Shown piece by piece: positions 4,553 through 34,999 of a stretch of 64,000 nt of DNA; position 1 is the first letter of the stretch, and each line of letters starts with the position of its first letter. The position numbers and the translations under genes are program-made. Source of the DNA: a virus; the IMG/VR virus record IMGVR_UViG_3300043395_003277, positions 1-64,000 of that record. One strand, given 5' to 3'. The notes beneath the pieces are model-generated. The model was not told the DNA's origin. It saw only the letters and a program-made list of their open reading frames with translations, and did not search any database.

Positions 4553-4578
4553 GATCAAAAACTTAAAATTTGATAAAC

Positions 4579-4603
4579 GCCAGGGATAAAACCCTGGCTT
4601 TTT
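4579..4603 (+). terminator. Rho-independent terminator
   Basis: GCCAGGG (4579-4585), loop ATAAAA, CCCTGGC (4592-4598) followed by TTTTTG. It lies 27 bases after the stop of the 4340-4552 gene and isolates it from the early region. Confidence 0.85.
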
Positions 4604-4983
4604 GTTTAAAAATTAGGGCAAAACCCTAGATATACCGACACTTTTGTCAAAAAAACCGGCCTCATATAGCACCCAAAAAGGAAAATAAAATTTCTGGGCC
4701 TTCTCCAGACCCCTACGCGACACGTAATGTGTATAGAAAAAAAGAAAGGGGGTGATGGTCAAGGAAAGGATAGGGTGGGGTATAGTGGTGCGAATTTTGG
4801 ATAAATTATTGAGAATGATTATCAACAAGACGCGCAATTAACACGTAAATACATAACGATATCGTTATATGATCATATTATTATGTTGCGTATAGGACTC
4901 TGCTGCTCCGCCCTCTCCCCTTTGCCAGACAGGACAGTCACTCAACAGGAACTTAGATATCAATTGTGATTACATTGACTCAT
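4604..4983. other. Non-coding segment with a perfect 16-bp palindrome
   Basis: About 380 bases with no convincing gene. A minus frame at 4613-4837 lacks start signals and neighbours. ATAACGATATCGTTAT at 4853-4868 is a perfect palindrome. Its right half, ATATCGTTATAT (4859-4870), recurs at 8620-8631 next to a sigma70-like promoter. The AT-rich stretch 4845-4885 is the likely promoter and operator region for the early gene cluster that begins at 5040. Confidence 0.5.
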
Positions 4984-5003
4984 CGTCGAGCTGGACGTTA
5001 AAC
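4984..5003 (+). promoter_or_regulatory. Hairpin-TTAAAC leader element, copy 1
   Basis: CGTC (4984-4987), loop GAGCTG, GACG (4994-4997), then TTAAAC (4998-5003). It is one of seven copies in the window (others at 7576, 10845, 18025, 20937, 22030, 25920). It lies 36 bases before the ATG at 5040, separated by a CA-rich leader with repeated CAACTCAAC. Confidence 0.65.
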
Positions 5004-5039
5004 GTAGCAACTTCAACTCAACACCAACTCAACTGAATC

Positions 5040-5225
5040 ATGATTAAAGCTCAACTGTTTATCTTTGTTTTGTTCACTGCCATTACTGCTGGCGCAGCCA
5101 GTCAAGTCGGTATACATCTACTTGATAAAGCAACTGCTCGTCAGTGCCAGGCTAACGATTGGCCTGAAGAACTTGATCGCACTCACAAGGACTGGTGCGT
5201 AGACAACGGCTACAAGATTAACTGA
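5040..5225 (+). CDS. Small membrane or exported protein, CVD type
   Basis: A 61-residue protein with a hydrophobic N-terminal helix (residues 5-22, FIFVLFTAITAGAASQ) and a polar C-terminal domain with two cysteines (RQCQAND and DWCVDNGY). It resembles its downstream neighbour at 5295-5492 in length, order of helix and cysteines, and the final CVD. The leader has no Shine-Dalgarno but carries CAACTCAACACCAACTCAAC. The two cysteines could form a disulfide outside the cytoplasm. Function is unknown. Confidence 0.65.
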   Translation: MIKAQLFIFVLFTAITAGAASQVGIHLLDKATARQCQANDWPEELDRTHKDWCVDNGYKIN

Positions 5226-5226
5226 C

Positions 5227-5272
5227 TCCTGCTCTGGGGACTACGGTCCCCTCAACAGGACTCAACATCCTG
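5227..5272 (+). promoter_or_regulatory. Bistable intercistronic RNA module, copy 1
   Basis: It starts 2 bases after a stop codon. TCCTG (5227-5231), inner hairpin GGGGAC-TACG-GTCCCC (5236-5251), CAGGA (5256-5260), CTCAACA, TCCTG (5268-5272). The central CAGGA can pair with either TCCTG, giving two mutually exclusive folds. The same design recurs at 5494, 5803 and 6315. Confidence 0.65.
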
Positions 5273-5294
5273 TATACATTATTACTACCACATC

Positions 5295-5492
5295 ATGGAC
5301 AAAGCATTCACTCAAGCTTGCATTGCAATGATCATGGGCACTGGCATTGGCATGCTGTTGTCTGTTGGCGGGCAGAAGATGCTTAACCAACATGCACTCA
5401 AGACATGTCCAAGTAAGTCAGGGCACCAACTTGTAATGCTCACCAGCTTTATTGGTGATGCATTCTATTGCGTTGATAAGCGTTACCTTTGA
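5295..5492 (+). CDS. Small membrane or exported protein, CVD type (paralogue)
   Basis: A 65-residue protein with an N-terminal hydrophobic helix (AMIMGTGIGMLLSVGGQ) and two cysteines in the polar part (KTCPSKS and FYCVDKRYL). Its arrangement parallels the 5040-5225 product, so the two look like tandem, strongly diverged paralogues. It is preceded by bistable module copy 1 and followed by copy 2. No function is recognised. Confidence 0.6.
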   Translation: MDKAFTQACIAMIMGTGIGMLLSVGGQKMLNQHALKTCPSKSGHQLVMLTSFIGDAFYCVDKRYL

Positions 5493-5493
5493 C

Positions 5494-5539
5494 TCCTGCT
5501 CTGGGGCCACTTGGCCCCTCAACAGGACTCAACATCCTG
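5494..5539 (+). promoter_or_regulatory. Bistable intercistronic RNA module, copy 2
   Basis: TCCTG (5494-5498), inner hairpin GGGGCC-ACTT-GGCCCC (5503-5518), CAGGA (5523-5527), CTCAACA, TCCTG (5535-5539). The inner stem differs from copy 1 at several paired positions while still pairing perfectly, which supports an RNA structure. Confidence 0.65.
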
Positions 5540-5561
5540 TATTCACCAGCTCATCACAATC

Positions 5562-5801
5562 ATGTTCATTTATCAACCTTGCGAAGAAGCATGTGATCGC
5601 ATTGTCTGGTACGGTGGTGAATCAACTCAACTTCACTACGAAGTGTTCACCGAACGAAGCGAGTGGATCGAACTATCAGTTCGTACACTTGGCGGCGGTA
5701 TACCCATAGGTGTCGGTGCACTTCATGCAGAGATGGTTGATTACTACAACGACTGCAATGCAGGTATCACAATGCTTGCTGATGCATTTATGGAGGACTG
5801 A
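5562..5801 (+). CDS. Small acidic hypothetical protein
   Basis: 79 residues from the ATG at 5562. A longer reading from TTG at 5511 would run through the hairpin of module copy 2, so I prefer the ATG, which follows a CA-rich leader. It contains RTLGGGIPIGVG and several cysteines. No family is recognised. Module copy 3 follows its stop by one base. Confidence 0.6.
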   Translation: MFIYQPCEEACDRIVWYGGESTQLHYEVFTERSEWIELSVRTLGGGIPIGVGALHAEMVDYYNDCNAGITMLADAFMED

Positions 5802-5802
5802 C

Positions 5803-5854
5803 TTCTGCACTTTCCCATCCGCAAGGATGGGTTACTGCAGGACTCAACATCCTG
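5803..5854 (+). promoter_or_regulatory. Bistable intercistronic RNA module, copy 3
   Basis: TTCTGCA (5803-5809) can pair with TGCAGGA (5836-5842) around the inner hairpin CCCATCC-GCAA-GGATGGG (5814-5831, GNRA tetraloop). Alternatively CAGGA (5838-5842) pairs with TCCTG (5850-5854). The inner stem is unrelated in sequence to copies 1 and 2 but occupies the same place. Confidence 0.65.
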
Positions 5855-5879
5855 TACACATTCAACTCAACTCAGCACC

Positions 5880-6308
5880 ATGACATTCACACCTGCTACT
5901 GACACTGCTGAACTCAAGCAGTACGCAGACTCGCAACAAGTCCAGTTCTCTGGACGCATTGCGTTTATTAAGCAGTACACCAACGAAGCAGACAACTCTG
6001 TATTCGTTGCTATCAAACTAATTCATAATCTGAACTCCATGGTTCAGATCACTGTTACATTTACGAATAGCAACGGCCTTAACACTGCATACTCCAACGG
6101 CAATCTCGTTGTCGGTCAAGAGTTGCGTGTCTACGGACGTATCACTGGTATTCGTACGACATACCAAGATCAAGATGGACAGCTCCAGGTGCTCAAGCGA
6201 CCCGAGCTACAGCTGACTGTAAGGGATTACGAGTTCGGTCGTAAGCCTGCAGCAAAGACTGAAGCACCGGCCAAGGTTGAGCCAACCCTGGAAGAAATCC
6301 CATTCTGA
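5880..6308 (+). CDS. OB-fold, SSB-like DNA-binding protein
   Basis: 142 residues. The body alternates beta strands (VQFSGRIAFIKQYT, VFVAIKLIHN, ELRVYGRITGIRTTY) as in an OB fold. A disordered Ala/Pro/Lys linker leads to an acidic, aromatic-ended tail EEIPF, like the IPF tip by which bacterial SSB recruits partners. A single-strand DNA-binding or related replication accessory role is inferred from this tail. A second, larger SSB lies at 20985-21791. Start is the ATG after a leader with TTCAACTCAACTCAGCACC. Confidence 0.6.
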   Translation: MTFTPATDTAELKQYADSQQVQFSGRIAFIKQYTNEADNSVFVAIKLIHNLNSMVQITVTFTNSNGLNTAYSNGNLVVGQELRVYGRITGIRTTYQDQDGQLQVLKRPELQLTVRDYEFGRKPAAKTEAPAKVEPTLEEIPF

Positions 6309-6314
6309 TCTGAT

Positions 6315-6387
6315 TCCTGCACTTAACCCTTCCGTTGATGCAACCCTGTATCAGCGGTGGGTTTTCTGCAGGATTCAACATCCTGCA
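6315..6387 (+). promoter_or_regulatory. Bistable intercistronic RNA module, copy 4
   Basis: TCCTGCA (6315-6321) can pair with TGCAGGA (6367-6373), enclosing AACCC/GGGTT and the 8-bp stem CCGTTGAT/ATCAGCGG (6332-6357). Alternatively TGCAGGA pairs with TCCTGCA at 6381-6387. The outer pairing is extended by CA/TG relative to copies 1 and 2 in both alternatives. Confidence 0.65.
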
Positions 6388-6412
6388 ATTCAATTACCCA
6401 ACATCTCAACAC

Positions 6413-6571
6413 ATGCGCAAATTCATTAACAAGATCTTCTATTCATTGGGATACGTCCCAATAGCAGAATACGAGAAGGTTTGTTACCACCGCCGTAATC
6501 TGCAACGTCTGGTACTTGATTACCAAGACGGCAAGATCAAGCCCGCTCCTAGTTTCGAAATCTACCGATGA
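6413..6571 (+). CDS. Small basic hypothetical protein
   Basis: 52 residues from the ATG at 6413, which follows a leader containing CATCTCAACAC. An upstream in-frame ATG at 6335 lies inside module copy 4 and is rejected. The protein is basic (KFINKIFYSLGYVPIAEYEK, then RRNLQRLVLDYQDGK). Its stop overlaps the next ATG by four bases. Unknown function. Confidence 0.55.
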   Translation: MRKFINKIFYSLGYVPIAEYEKVCYHRRNLQRLVLDYQDGKIKPAPSFEIYR

Positions 6572-6777
6572 AACATACCGTACGCCTCGGCAAAAACCAG
6601 TACATCAATCTGGATTCTTATGGTGAGTCTAATAAGACTCGACGGATCAACAACCTGATGGTCGCATTCCTTGCGGTACTCATCAGTGTTGTAACTGTAC
6701 CAGCCATGCTGGGCATCGACATCACATCACCTAACACCACAACTCAACATGAGCATCCACATCGCACTCGTCACTGA
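6568..6777 (+). CDS. Small single-helix membrane protein
   Basis: 69 residues with one transmembrane helix at about residues 30-50 (LMVAFLAVLISVVTVPAML), a basic N-terminus and a His/Thr-rich C-terminus. ATGA overlap with the previous gene indicates coupling. No family is recognised. Confidence 0.6.
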   Translation: MKHTVRLGKNQYINLDSYGESNKTRRINNLMVAFLAVLISVVTVPAMLGIDITSPNTTTQHEHPHRTRH

Positions 6778-6976
6778 CGCATCCGGTCGCTACGCCCACG
6801 TCTGGGGCGAAGCTCCAAGCTGGGGCAAGTTCCTTAATCAACTCGAAGACGTTGGCTGCGAGGTGATCGAGGAACAGACGGAAGACTGGGAAGACAGTAC
6901 TCAAGATGAGATTGCTGAAGACTGCCTGTCAGTCCATCAGCTGCTCAATGACACTGACTTCATACCCCACGACTAG
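6749..6976 (+). CDS. Small acidic hypothetical protein
   Basis: 75 residues, acidic (EEQTEDWEDSTQDEIAEDC), overlapping the preceding gene by 29 bases. Although the overlap is sizeable, the start is preceded by CACAACTCAAC, the leader motif used by neighbouring genes, which supports it. Unknown function. Confidence 0.55.
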   Translation: MSIHIALVTDASGRYAHVWGEAPSWGKFLNQLEDVGCEVIEEQTEDWEDSTQDEIAEDCLSVHQLLNDTDFIPHD

Positions 6977-6996
6977 TGTCCTGAATCTGAACAATA

Positions 6997-7036
6997 GCTA
7001 GTGGTGGTACTTGCCACTTGGCTTACCGCCGCTAGC
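6997..7036 (+). other. Long intercistronic hairpin
   Basis: GCTAGTGGTGG (6997-7007) pairs with CCGCCGCTAGC (7026-7036) over 11 positions with two G-U pairs. It lies 20 bases after a stop and 24 bases before the preferred ATG at 7061. It makes the alternative GTG start at 7001 unlikely because that codon is inside the stem. Confidence 0.55.
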
Positions 7037-7060
7037 CTGCATACGATTCCAATTCAACCC

Positions 7061-7486
7061 ATGGAAGCTCTCTCTCAACTCGACGTTCAATCACCTGATC
7101 ACGTCTCTGTGATTACCAGGGATGGCAAGGTCACAATCTCCGTCATCAAAGACGGAACATCAGTGACTCTTGGCTTCCCACTCAAGAACATAACCTTTGA
7201 TACAACTCCCCGTCCTCCCCTCCAACAGCCAGCGCCAAAGGTAATGGCTGTTAAGAGTGTTACCAAGACTTCAAGAGATAATGCTTCGACAGGTTATCGC
7301 TTTGCTCAGAAACTCACAGAAGATAAGGTGAAAGAACTCAAGCAAATCCTTGCAGATCCAGAGCTTATGTCCAAGTTCACAAGCAAGACCAAGGCTTATT
7401 ACGAACTTGGTCGCATCTATGGTGTCAGCCATTGTCGCATCTCACAGATTGCCAATGGTAACGGCTGGAACCACGTACAGCCTTGA
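7061..7486 (+). CDS. DNA-binding protein with C-terminal helix-turn-helix
   Basis: 141 residues from the ATG at 7061, preceded by CCAATTCAACCC. The C-terminal 55 residues (LTEDKVKELKQILADPELMS, then YYELGRIYGVSHCRISQIAN) match the short HTH seen at the ends of homing nucleases and phage regulators, where a TEEKVREIK-type helix precedes an HTH. The N-terminal part is beta-rich and unrecognised. No nuclease motif is present, so a regulator or a nuclease-derived DNA-binding protein is likely. Confidence 0.6.
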   Translation: MEALSQLDVQSPDHVSVITRDGKVTISVIKDGTSVTLGFPLKNITFDTTPRPPLQQPAPKVMAVKSVTKTSRDNASTGYRFAQKLTEDKVKELKQILADPELMSKFTSKTKAYYELGRIYGVSHCRISQIANGNGWNHVQP

Positions 7487-7575
7487 CACCGCAGTAGTAC
7501 ATAATTACTACGACTGGACCTGGACACACGCGGTGTGGATTCAATGAGATCAAAGAGTTATCTTTGTATTTCTTT

Positions 7576-7602
7576 GGATCCGCCTGCGGCGTCCTTAAAC
7601 TG
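7576..7602 (+). promoter_or_regulatory. Hairpin-TTAAACTG leader element, copy 7 (variant stem)
   Basis: GGA-tc-CGCC (7576-7584), loop TGC, GGCG-TCC (7588-7594), then TTAAACTG (7595-7602). The stem sequence differs entirely from the other six copies, yet it ends directly at TTAAACTG. The next ATG is 26 bases downstream after CAATTCAACTC. Confidence 0.55.
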
Positions 7603-7628
7603 TCCATTTACTTTATTCAATTCAACTC

Positions 7629-7820
7629 ATGAACGACCTTAATTTTATTGATGAACAACGCAGTGCTGACTTGCTGGATGCAATGGCCGACATTGCAGAC
7701 GAACAAGAGCAAGCCATGCGTGAATCACTTCAATCTGAATGGTCCCTCATCGAAGATGAAGATGGAACATTCATTGGATTTACTGTAACCAACACACATG
7801 AAGACGATGACCAAACTTAA
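7629..7820 (+). CDS. Small acidic hypothetical protein
   Basis: 63 residues, strongly acidic with many Asp/Glu (DAMADIADEQEQAMRESLQS). First gene after leader element copy 7. Unknown; the charge and size resemble DNA-mimic or inhibitor proteins, but nothing specific supports that. Confidence 0.6.
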   Translation: MNDLNFIDEQRSADLLDAMADIADEQEQAMRESLQSEWSLIEDEDGTFIGFTVTNTHEDDDQT

Positions 7821-14526: not shown

Positions 14527-14602
14527 GCCCGAGTAGCCCAGCGGAAGAGGCAAGCGACTTAAAATCGCTCCAGCGTGAGTTCGAATCTCACCTCGGGTAC
14601 CA
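14527..14602 (+). tRNA. tRNA with anticodon UAA (Leu), short variable arm, CCA encoded
   Basis: Acceptor GCCCGAG/CTCGGGT (first pair G-U), D stem GCC/GGC, anticodon stem AGCGA/TCGCT with loop CTTAAAA giving anticodon UAA, variable loop of 5 bases (CCAGC), T arm GTGAG-TTCGAAT-CTCAC, discriminator A, CCA at 14600-14602. Leucine tRNAs normally have a long variable arm, so this is an unusual class I body with a leucine anticodon. It would read UUA codons. Confidence 0.9.
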
Positions 14603-20984: not shown

Positions 20985-21791
20985 ATGAACAACTTTGTTT
21001 CTGCTTATGCGCAAACCTTGGAAGAGCCAAGGGAAGTTTATATATCGGCAACCTCAACAGCAATCAGGTGTTTAGTTGGGTTGCCACCTGTTGGAAATAA
21101 AGCAGCAACACAAATCGAACTCAATGTCTACGGCAAAAACGCAGAGCGATTTGCACGTGCGCCAAAAGGAGCACACATCTACATTCACGGCGCCAAGCTA
21201 CGTCATGATCTCGAATCCAGAACGCACTCGCTCCATGGAGGATCTATTGCACCGGTTAATGACCAATTCCCAATCTTCAATGATGTCATCCTTGTTGGAC
21301 GATGCGTGAAAGATTTGGGAGATGATAATCGCGCCTTCCGTACAACCGAAGGTGGACTGATGATTTGCCAGCAAGCGCTTTCTGTCAGCACAGGTAAAAA
21401 CCAAGCTGATCTATTTAACTTTTATGCAATCAACTCAGCCACAGATAAATTAAACAACGCTGAATTGCTTTATAACTTTACACGTAAAGGTACTGGTATT
21501 ACGTTGCGTGGTCGTCTTGTTACAGATAGCTGGACTGATCAGACCACAAAAGAACGTAAGTCTCAAACCAAGATCCAACTGGTCAGCATGACGCTGGCAC
21601 CTAAGACAACATCAGGTGATACCAAACAACCACAAGCTCAACCCGTAGCAACCAATGCAGCGGAAGCGCCATCTCTTTGGAACAATCACAGTGCTCCTGT
21701 TGATCCTTGGAATGTGGCTTCTGGTGGTGGGCTTCCTGACCTCCCTGGTCATTACGGCCCTACACCTGATCTTGAAGAGCAACCTTTCTGA
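20985..21791 (+). CDS. ssb: Two-domain single-strand DNA-binding protein
   Basis: 268 residues. Residues about 92-200 follow the bacterial SSB pattern (NDVILVGRCVKDLGDDNRAF, then LRGRLVTDSW and QTKIQLVSM). Residues 15-75 look like another OB fold (IELNVYGKNAERFARAPKGA, IYIHGAKLRHD). A Pro/Asn/Gly-rich linker leads to the acidic tip EEQPF, close to the usual IPF interaction tail. It would coat single-stranded DNA and recruit replication enzymes. Its stop overlaps the next ATG. Confidence 0.8.
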   Translation: MNNFVSAYAQTLEEPREVYISATSTAIRCLVGLPPVGNKAATQIELNVYGKNAERFARAPKGAHIYIHGAKLRHDLESRTHSLHGGSIAPVNDQFPIFNDVILVGRCVKDLGDDNRAFRTTEGGLMICQQALSVSTGKNQADLFNFYAINSATDKLNNAELLYNFTRKGTGITLRGRLVTDSWTDQTTKERKSQTKIQLVSMTLAPKTTSGDTKQPQAQPVATNAAEAPSLWNNHSAPVDPWNVASGGGLPDLPGHYGPTPDLEEQPF

Positions 21792-34459: not shown

Positions 34460-34462
34460 GTA

Positions 34463-34538
34463 TCGGAGCGCTCAGATTTGAACTGAGATTATTCCTGTCC
34501 CCAAAACAGGTGCCATGACCAAGTTAGGCGACGCTCCG
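34463..34538 (-). tRNA. tRNA-Pro(UGG)
   Basis: Read on the minus strand: acceptor CGGAGCG/CGCTCCG (perfect), D arm with GCC/GGC stem and TTGGTCA-type loop, anticodon arm CCTGT-TTTGGGG-ACAGG with anticodon TGG, variable AATAA, T arm CTCAG-TTCAAAT-CTGAG, discriminator A. No CCA is encoded. The 5' three quarters lie inside the 3' end of the HNH ORF at 34472-34999. Confidence 0.9.
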
Positions 34539-34999
34539 AAACTGTTTACGTACTTTAACACCTTTTCTTCAATTAAAGCGCGATGTCTTGAGTGCCAAAT
34601 CCGATGGTGGTTTGGACATAAAGGTATTAAATTCAAAGGACTGTTATCTTTATTGTTTCCGTTTAAATGGTGCACCTCAATAATTAAATTAAAACCGCAA
34701 AGGCAACATTCTTTTTTGTGATATGCAAAACAAATTGTTCTGTAATTATTGCCTTGATAATTTGGATTGCATGTGCCTTTTCTAAAAAAACTGTTGTAAC
34801 AACTTGTGCTACATGTTTTTTGTTCAGGATGTTTTAAAACGCCGCACTTCGGGCAAGGCGTCCCAAAAGCTGGGTTTTGCGTGCAAGTTTTTAAATGACG
34901 AATAATAAAAGGTTTTTTAAATTCTTTTTTGCAAAAAATACAGCACACTAAAGGATCTTTGCGCCCTCGCAAAAGATTGTTTAAAGAATTTTTATGCAC
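34472..34999 (-). CDS. HNH endonuclease reading into tRNA-Pro
   Basis: 175 codons from GTG 34999. Several Cys pairs (CCIFCKKEF, CPKCGVLKHPEQKTCSTSC) precede a classic HNH core (CCLCGFNLIIEVHHLNGNNK, LNLIPLCPNHHRIWH). The last 22 codons (ASPNLVMAPVLGTGIISVQI at the end) are the tRNA-Pro gene read in frame, so the natural nuclease ends near KYVNSFG. It probably inserted right next to the tRNA. AT-rich compared with neighbours. Confidence 0.8.
   Translation of the reverse strand: MHKNSLNNLLRGRKDPLVCCIFCKKEFKKPFIIRHLKTCTQNPAFGTPCPKCGVLKHPEQKTCSTSCYNSFFRKGTCNPNYQGNNYRTICFAYHKKECCLCGFNLIIEVHHLNGNNKDNSPLNLIPLCPNHHRIWHSRHRALIEEKVLKYVNSFGASPNLVMAPVLGTGIISVQI

Follow-up and report, generated by a model that had tools for sequence, protein, structure and literature searches.

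Four gene junctions in a viral genome raise the question of whether a single RNA segment can be kept by evolution as the partner of two competing strands and, if so, what would choose between them. The window analysed is a stretch of 64,000 nucleotides (positions 1 to 64,000 of IMG/VR record IMGVR_UViG_3300043395_003277); the whole virus record runs to 85,449 bases. A sequence-only reading of positions 5,227 to 6,387 had proposed that, after four successive stop codons, a CAGGA segment pairs either with an upstream or with a downstream TCCTG, giving two mutually exclusive folds that act as a switch or a processing device.

The small-gene array and its junction modules

Among 50,697 phage records, the sole match of a 597-aa protein of the window is Synechococcus phage S-EIVl, which is also the sole phage match (42.8% identity) of the 142-aa protein encoded between modules 3 and 4. 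As S-EIVl carries a corresponding run of small genes as well, the window is, judged from its proteins, that of an S-EIV1-like freshwater Synechococcus phage. Within an array of short genes, four modules separate five small genes on the + strand. The first gene (61 aa, 5040..5225) lies upstream of module 1, and S-EIVl has a similar protein ahead of the same region. It is followed by genes of 65 aa (5295..5492; from the ORF list and gene-family comparison) between modules 1 and 2, 79 aa (5562..5801; gene family 2) between modules 2 and 3, 142 aa (5880..6308) and, downstream of module 4, 52 aa (6413..6571). The last of these overlaps the next ORF (6568), and there is no module at that junction. 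The 142-aa product has no match in Pfam or PHROGs; its C-terminus, LEEIPF, resembles the acidic tip of SSB proteins, a resemblance only. A separate Pfam SSB is found in the window at 20985-21791. The one sigma-70-like match in 4560-7700, where 4.6 would be expected by chance, lies at 4838..4865 (+), outside all modules, and is a possible candidate promoter for the whole array. The same scan, which covered sigma-70-like promoters only, gave no match inside the modules, so that a promoter of this kind was rejected as their function.

The modules lie where they had been placed before, starting at 5223, 5490, 5799 and 6311. They are matched by the R1 covariance model at 5223-5274, 5490-5541, 5799-5856 and 6311-6387, with E values of 1e-17 to 7e-19 that are not independent, the model having been partly trained on these four copies. 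Further, the window contains five occurrences of CAGGAYTCAACATCCTG with up to three mismatches, where shuffles predict 0.35, and the four exact matches are the modules. In fold 1 a 5' arm pairs with a central arm (P1) around an inner stem (P2), whereas in fold 2 the central arm pairs with a 3' arm (P3) and P2 is kept. The upstream pairing, described earlier as closing a multi-stem structure, instead forms one long hairpin with internal mismatches, and the earlier account lacked a further element of it: the TGA pairs with a TCA just 3' of CAGGA.

Module 1 (5223..5274, +; R1 E 5.5e-18) comprises the TGA (5223-5225), the 5' arm TCCTGCT (5227-5233), P2 GGGGAC/GTCCCC with a C(UACG)G loop (5236-5251), the central arm AACAGGA (5254-5260), the TCA that partners the TGA (5262-5264) and the 3' arm TCCTGT (5268-5273). 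Module 2 (5490..5541, +; R1 E 6.2e-18) has its TGA at 5490-5492, its 5' arm at 5494-5500, P2 GGGGCC/GGCCCC at 5503-5518, its central arm at 5521-5527 and its 3' arm at 5535-5540. In module 3 (5799..5856, +; R1 E 1.2e-17) the TGA (5799-5801) precedes the 5' arm TTCTGCA (5803-5809), P2 CCCATCC/GGATGGG (5814-5831), the central arm TGCAGGA (5836-5842) and the 3' arm TCCTGT (5850-5855). The jointly altered arms reported for this copy do pair, the TTCTGCA arm doing so by way of one U-G pair. Module 4 (6306..6387, +; R1 match 6311-6387, E 6.7e-19) has the 5' arm TCCTGCA (6315-6321), a P2 that includes CCGTTGAT/ATCAGCGG (6325-6363), the central arm TGCAGGA (6367-6373) and the 3' arm TCCTGCA (6381-6387). 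The inner stems of all four copies are thus those given before. The claim that each module directly follows a stop codon holds for copies 1-3 but not for copy 4, in which the TGA of the module (6311-6313) is not that of the gene; the real stop (6306-6308) lies 2 nt before it. Having three arms is in itself nothing unusual: a loose scan of the + strand of the window, which is unspecific, returned 24 sites against 8-19 in shuffles. The evidence lies in recurrence with covariation.

Conservation of two competing pairings and of the paired stop codon

Pattern and covariance-model searches brought the number of distinct copies in related viral contigs to about 125. The CAGGAYTCAACATCCTG search gave 84 stretches of viral contigs, about 65 of which are modules by inspection and the remainder single chance matches. 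R1, built from 57 sequences, found matches in all 49 records searched, most of which hold 2-7 modules clustered within a few kilobases. The isolate S-EIVl has one module (R1 E 5.7e-7), a copy outside the training set that was detected by the covariance model alone. Searching relatives for the same design had been suggested as a check, and the homologous loci do carry the module: all 12 loci retrieved by the 142-aa protein alone belong to module-carrying records. The refuting condition set earlier, that related phages lack the paired segments at homologous junctions, thus did not hold. By BLASTN, neither the region nor the consensus module had a match in the phage records. Host or prophage origin was rejected, as the 64 scattered single matches of a 17-mer in bacterial and archaeal genomes are close to the roughly 60 expected by chance, a figure estimated from the size of the collection. 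Rfam 15 gave no match for 4850-6600 even at E <= 5, which discards a known riboswitch or ribozyme family, and no paper mentioning both S-EIV1 and a stem-loop was found in the literature searched. Across the whole window, Rfam at its gathering threshold reports a sole tRNA (14527-14599); ARAGORN calls tRNA-Leu(taa) at 14527-14602 (+) and tRNA-Pro(tgg) at 34462-34539 (-). As far as Rfam and the literature searched show, we rate the modules as an undescribed RNA family, bistable cis-acting RNAs in general being already known.

Both folds are preserved across these copies. In set A1, 92-94% of cells are paired in both folds, against 79% in shuffles; the 3' arm of this set was fixed by the search pattern, which biases the P3 figure, a bias lessened by the divergent copies recovered via the model. 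Fourteen different heptamers serve as the central arm (TGCAGGA, TGCAGAC, TGCAGGG, TACAGGA, AACAGGA, TGCAGGC, TGTAGTC, TGCAGCC, TGCAGGT, TGTAGGC, ACCAGGA, AGCAGGA, TGCAGTC and TGCAGAG), each complementary to both outer arms. When central arms were reassigned among the 14 classes, none of 20,000 permutations reached the observed complementarity on either side (p < 5e-5 each, not corrected for phylogeny, the classes being related sequences). Further, patterns naming the 5' and central arms only recovered 38 genuine modules, every one of which has a 3' arm that pairs: 20 of 20 in the GAC class and 18 of 18 in the TCCTG class (17 TCCTG, and one TCTTG through G-U). Seven other distinct hits of these patterns have no P2 and look like unrelated chance sequence. 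Bistable RNAs have mostly been proposed from one sequence, so that 14 covarying arms in some 125 copies make a rare comparative case. The earlier proposal that two mutually exclusive pairings are both maintained is upheld by this comparison, and their preservation suggests a device that would sense ribosomes finishing the upstream gene.

One could ask whether the repeats act as DNA, either as recombination linkers for gene shuffling or as three repeats evolving in concert by template switching, with RNA folding as a by-product. The genes at these junctions are indeed strongly shuffled, as this account would have it. However, the 3' arm keeps pace with the central arm even in classes whose 5' arm fails to do so (TCCTGCT-AACAGGA-TCCTGT, TCCTGAT-ACCAGGA-TCCTGG, TCCTGCA-TGCAGGC-GCCTGC and, in S-EIVl, CCCTGCA-TGCAGAG-CTCTGT), and judged from these classes it is more than a duplicate of the 5' arm. 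Over 61 distinct triples, wobble pairs are more frequent in the P1 core (28) than in the P3 core (10). G-U pairs far outnumber A-C pairs, their mirror on the other strand, in P1 (71 versus 14) as in P3 (43 versus 2), which indicates that selection acts on the mRNA. The sense strand also folds more stably than the other strand in 106 of 120 modules. Together, the G-U excess and the sense-strand stability argue against purely DNA-level structure or repeat correction, and we consider a DNA-level origin very unlikely.

The stop codon itself forms one strand of fold 1, a feature that is new here. Modules start with TGA in 111 of 121 cases, and in 99 of these 111 all three TGA bases pair with the triplet one base past the central arm. 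That triplet is TCA in 89 and TTA in nine of the 111, the single distinct TGT module has a compensating ACA, and the spacer pair is pyrimidine-pyrimidine in 101 of 111. The module TGA is the stop of the gene (longest open frame) in 100 of 142 modules, with the 5' arm starting one nucleotide later; most of the remaining modules have a stop within about a dozen bases upstream. A terminating ribosome covers roughly ten nucleotides past the stop, which puts the 5' arm inside its footprint. Comparison among copies thus demonstrates both pairings, the pairing of the stop codon, the spacing and selection on the mRNA strand at the level of sequence. With a conserved RNA structure thus joined to the stop codon itself, translation cannot terminate there without remodelling it. 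Ribosomes reading through or bypassing the stop into the next gene, as well as a bacterial SECIS, were rejected as explanations, as the stop-to-start distance modulo 3 is 0, 1 and 2 in 44, 39 and 56 modules and in-frame stops are many. That three of the four window copies are in frame with the next gene is a matter of chance, given the spread of frames over all modules.

Computed folding and the proposed gating by ribosomes

An energy comparison of the two folds had been suggested as a check, and it shows that they are not equally stable: computed at 37 C, P1 is favoured in 91% of modules by a mean of 3.9 kcal/mol. In the window its lead is 3-5 kcal/mol, with P1-fold and P3-fold energies of -22.8 and -19.6 kcal/mol for module 1, -23.6 and -20.4 for module 2, -25.4 and -20.6 for module 3 and -39.3 and -34.5 for module 4 (differences of 3.2, 3.2, 4.8 and 4.8 kcal/mol). 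In the S-EIVl module P3 is computed to be slightly favoured. The computed barrier to direct refolding from P1 to P3 is about 10 kcal/mol. Since the folds are intrinsically unequal, reaching fold 2 would take some agent, for instance a terminating ribosome. In a model calculation that represents the ribosome in simplified form, by barring the stop region and the ten bases that follow from pairing, the computed probability of P3 rises from 0.21 to 0.99. The folds are best read as putative ribosome-free and ribosome-occupied states, not as an equal mixture.

On this basis we tentatively favour, as the leading though still less than even proposition, a ribosome-gated bistable junction element that probably insulates shuffled small genes from one another. 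The relative stabilities and the effect of blocking the stop region are computed, and gating by ribosomes in vivo and the insulating output are inferred. By default, the UGA and 5' arm would pair with the central arm and UCA, so that P1 and P2 form a long hairpin starting from the stop codon. A terminating ribosome would open P1 and cover the 5' arm, and the freed central arm would be captured by the 3' arm while P2 remains folded. Both states would then present a strong hairpin just past the stop and leave the G-poor, 20-31 nt leader of the next gene free. The purpose would most likely be insulation: post-termination ribosomes would be kept from running on, P3 would keep the freed central arm off the next leader, and the expression of constantly reshuffled small genes would not depend on the genes next to them. 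Chemla et al., as reviewed in PMC12548453, reported that structure placed directly behind a stop codon lowers translational coupling, and this effect would suit insulation between reshuffled genes. Against the ribosome-gated reading, some modules sit downstream of the real stop, at distances from a few nucleotides up to 36 nt, module-free junctions exist within the arrays, and the computed accessibility of the next start region hardly differs between states.

A related proposal is that upstream termination converts the RNA to P3 and that this change increases or decreases initiation on the next gene. Such a coupling switch would have the anatomy of a translation attenuator, with ribosome position choosing between two hairpins, and P3 does end 20-31 nt before the start codon (5-95% range). 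However, the start region is covered by neither fold. The computed accessibility of that region is nearly equal at 0.614 with free RNA, 0.634 with the ribosome and 0.625 with the ribosome in the absence of P3, so that in silico the downstream gene gains little from P3. The leader, which is 6% G, has an SD-like motif in 16 of 120 cases. Moreover, module sequence is independent of gene pairs, and we regard a coupling switch as improbable.

The gene neighbourhoods speak for the favoured, ribosome-gated reading. About ten families of small genes appear repeatedly, the common ones next to 3-8 different partners, and module sequence follows neither the upstream nor the downstream gene. The module was accordingly rejected as a marker of the adjacent gene, mean identity being 0.54-0.58 unless both genes are shared. 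Junctions after array genes comprise 51 with an overlap or very short gap, 53 with a module and 27 others, at least one of which (in contig L122) is a missed module.

The strongest rival that remains, though an unlikely one in our estimate, is mRNA processing and end protection. An endonuclease would cut the junction, P1 and P2 would guard the 3' end of the upstream product, and P3 would do the same for the downstream product at its 5' end. The central arm would then serve two products and would not be a switch. The start of the hairpin exactly at the stop codon and the position of P3 just upstream of the next leader both fit this scheme, as do the C(UNCG)G loops, present in 27 of the 95 distinct P2 inserts; stable UNCG-type loops are known from intercistronic hairpins of phage T4. 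Against it, no conserved cleavage sequence was seen: the segment that links P2 to the central arm is variable (U-rich in some types, as in TTTTC, and only TC in the GGGGAC type), and the pairing of the UGA itself is left unexplained.

Least likely of all, and highly improbable in our view, is an intrinsic terminator or transcription attenuator. Several types have a short U-rich run after P2, and module 4 alone among the four window modules is flagged as terminator-like by sequence prediction. Compared with the GC-rich hairpin and U-run of an intrinsic terminator, P2 conforms partly in some types, but P1 and P3 have no U-run after them and three of the four window modules are unflagged. Further, transcription reaches the central arm only once it has passed the U-run, too late for P1 and P3 to control termination there.

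If the ribosome-gated reading holds, copies spread from junction to junction would make gene cassettes independent of their neighbours. More boldly, and with rather less confidence than in the gated element as such, the module may be a general-purpose RNA switch in which the stop codon acts as a helix strand and which each terminating ribosome flips, a natural ribosome-sensing insulator across a shuffling array. This would suggest how phages keep reshuffled small genes expressible and offer a natural counterpart of synthetic-biology insulators. For experiments, an isolated relative is available in S-EIVl, a phage of Synechococcus.

Related systems and other junction elements

Translation attenuators such as the erm and trp leaders have three segments, the central one pairing with either neighbour as ribosome position decides. 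The modules share these mutually exclusive pairings of one central segment, and ribosome position would set their fold likewise. Attenuators, however, mask a start site or form a terminator, and the modules do neither (accessibility 0.61-0.63 in all states); they also differ in lying at ordinary gene junctions, in several copies and with a paired stop codon. The T4 C(UUCG)G hairpins resemble the modules as very stable UNCG-loop hairpins between phage genes, and to our knowledge they have no alternative 3' arm. The attenuator principle is set out in PMC12548453.

The promoter early stem-loops (PeSLs) of T4-type phages (Arbiol et al. 2010 and Comeau et al. 2014, as cited in PMC4503421) are likewise stem-loops between shuffled small phage genes. 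As that citing paper presents them, PeSLs join an early promoter to a stem-loop that acts as a terminator. The window modules have no sigma-70-like promoter, module 4 alone is flagged as terminator-like, which gives a terminator function no general support, and the modules have conserved two-state pairing and a paired stop codon. In cluster K mycobacteriophages, the SAS/ESAS elements, with the 13-bp GGGATAGGAGCCC next to the start codon, are also repeated intergenic elements; they precede part of the phage genes and in some cases contain inverted repeats (PMC3203893). SAS is a fixed 13-bp sequence linked to translation initiation sites, in contrast to the stop-anchored modules, in which structure and not sequence is conserved. 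SAS/ESAS was rejected as an identity, as module leaders with 6% G cannot hold the 13-bp GGGATAGGAGCCC. An integron attC site was rejected as well: RYYYAAC fits (as ACTCAAC) in the TCCTG class only, by chance, and the GAC class has CCTCATC or CCTCAAG with no GTTRRRY partner.

Other structured elements occur at junctions of the same phages. A second one, with no credible match in Rfam, is found at 3495-3400 and 3790-3710 (-) of locus L087, near 1871 (+) of L112 and in about 22 other viral contigs. It has TGATCCGTCAAAGCGGGT at the stop codon, a covarying stem around GGTGCAAACCC and then CAGTTATTGCC...GGCACC. A third repeated element, at junctions in S-EIVl and one contig (L087, 1490-1435 and 790-720, -; L128, near 2062, -), reads roughly CTTGG/CCTGGG-C-RTCCA...GGTRTAAGTCC-CCAGG/CAAG. 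In the window itself, further junctions of the array at 6974-7050 and 7486-7560 hold different post-stop hairpins, GCTAGTGGTGG/CCGCCGCTAGC and CACCGC/GCGGTG, with no clear third arm.
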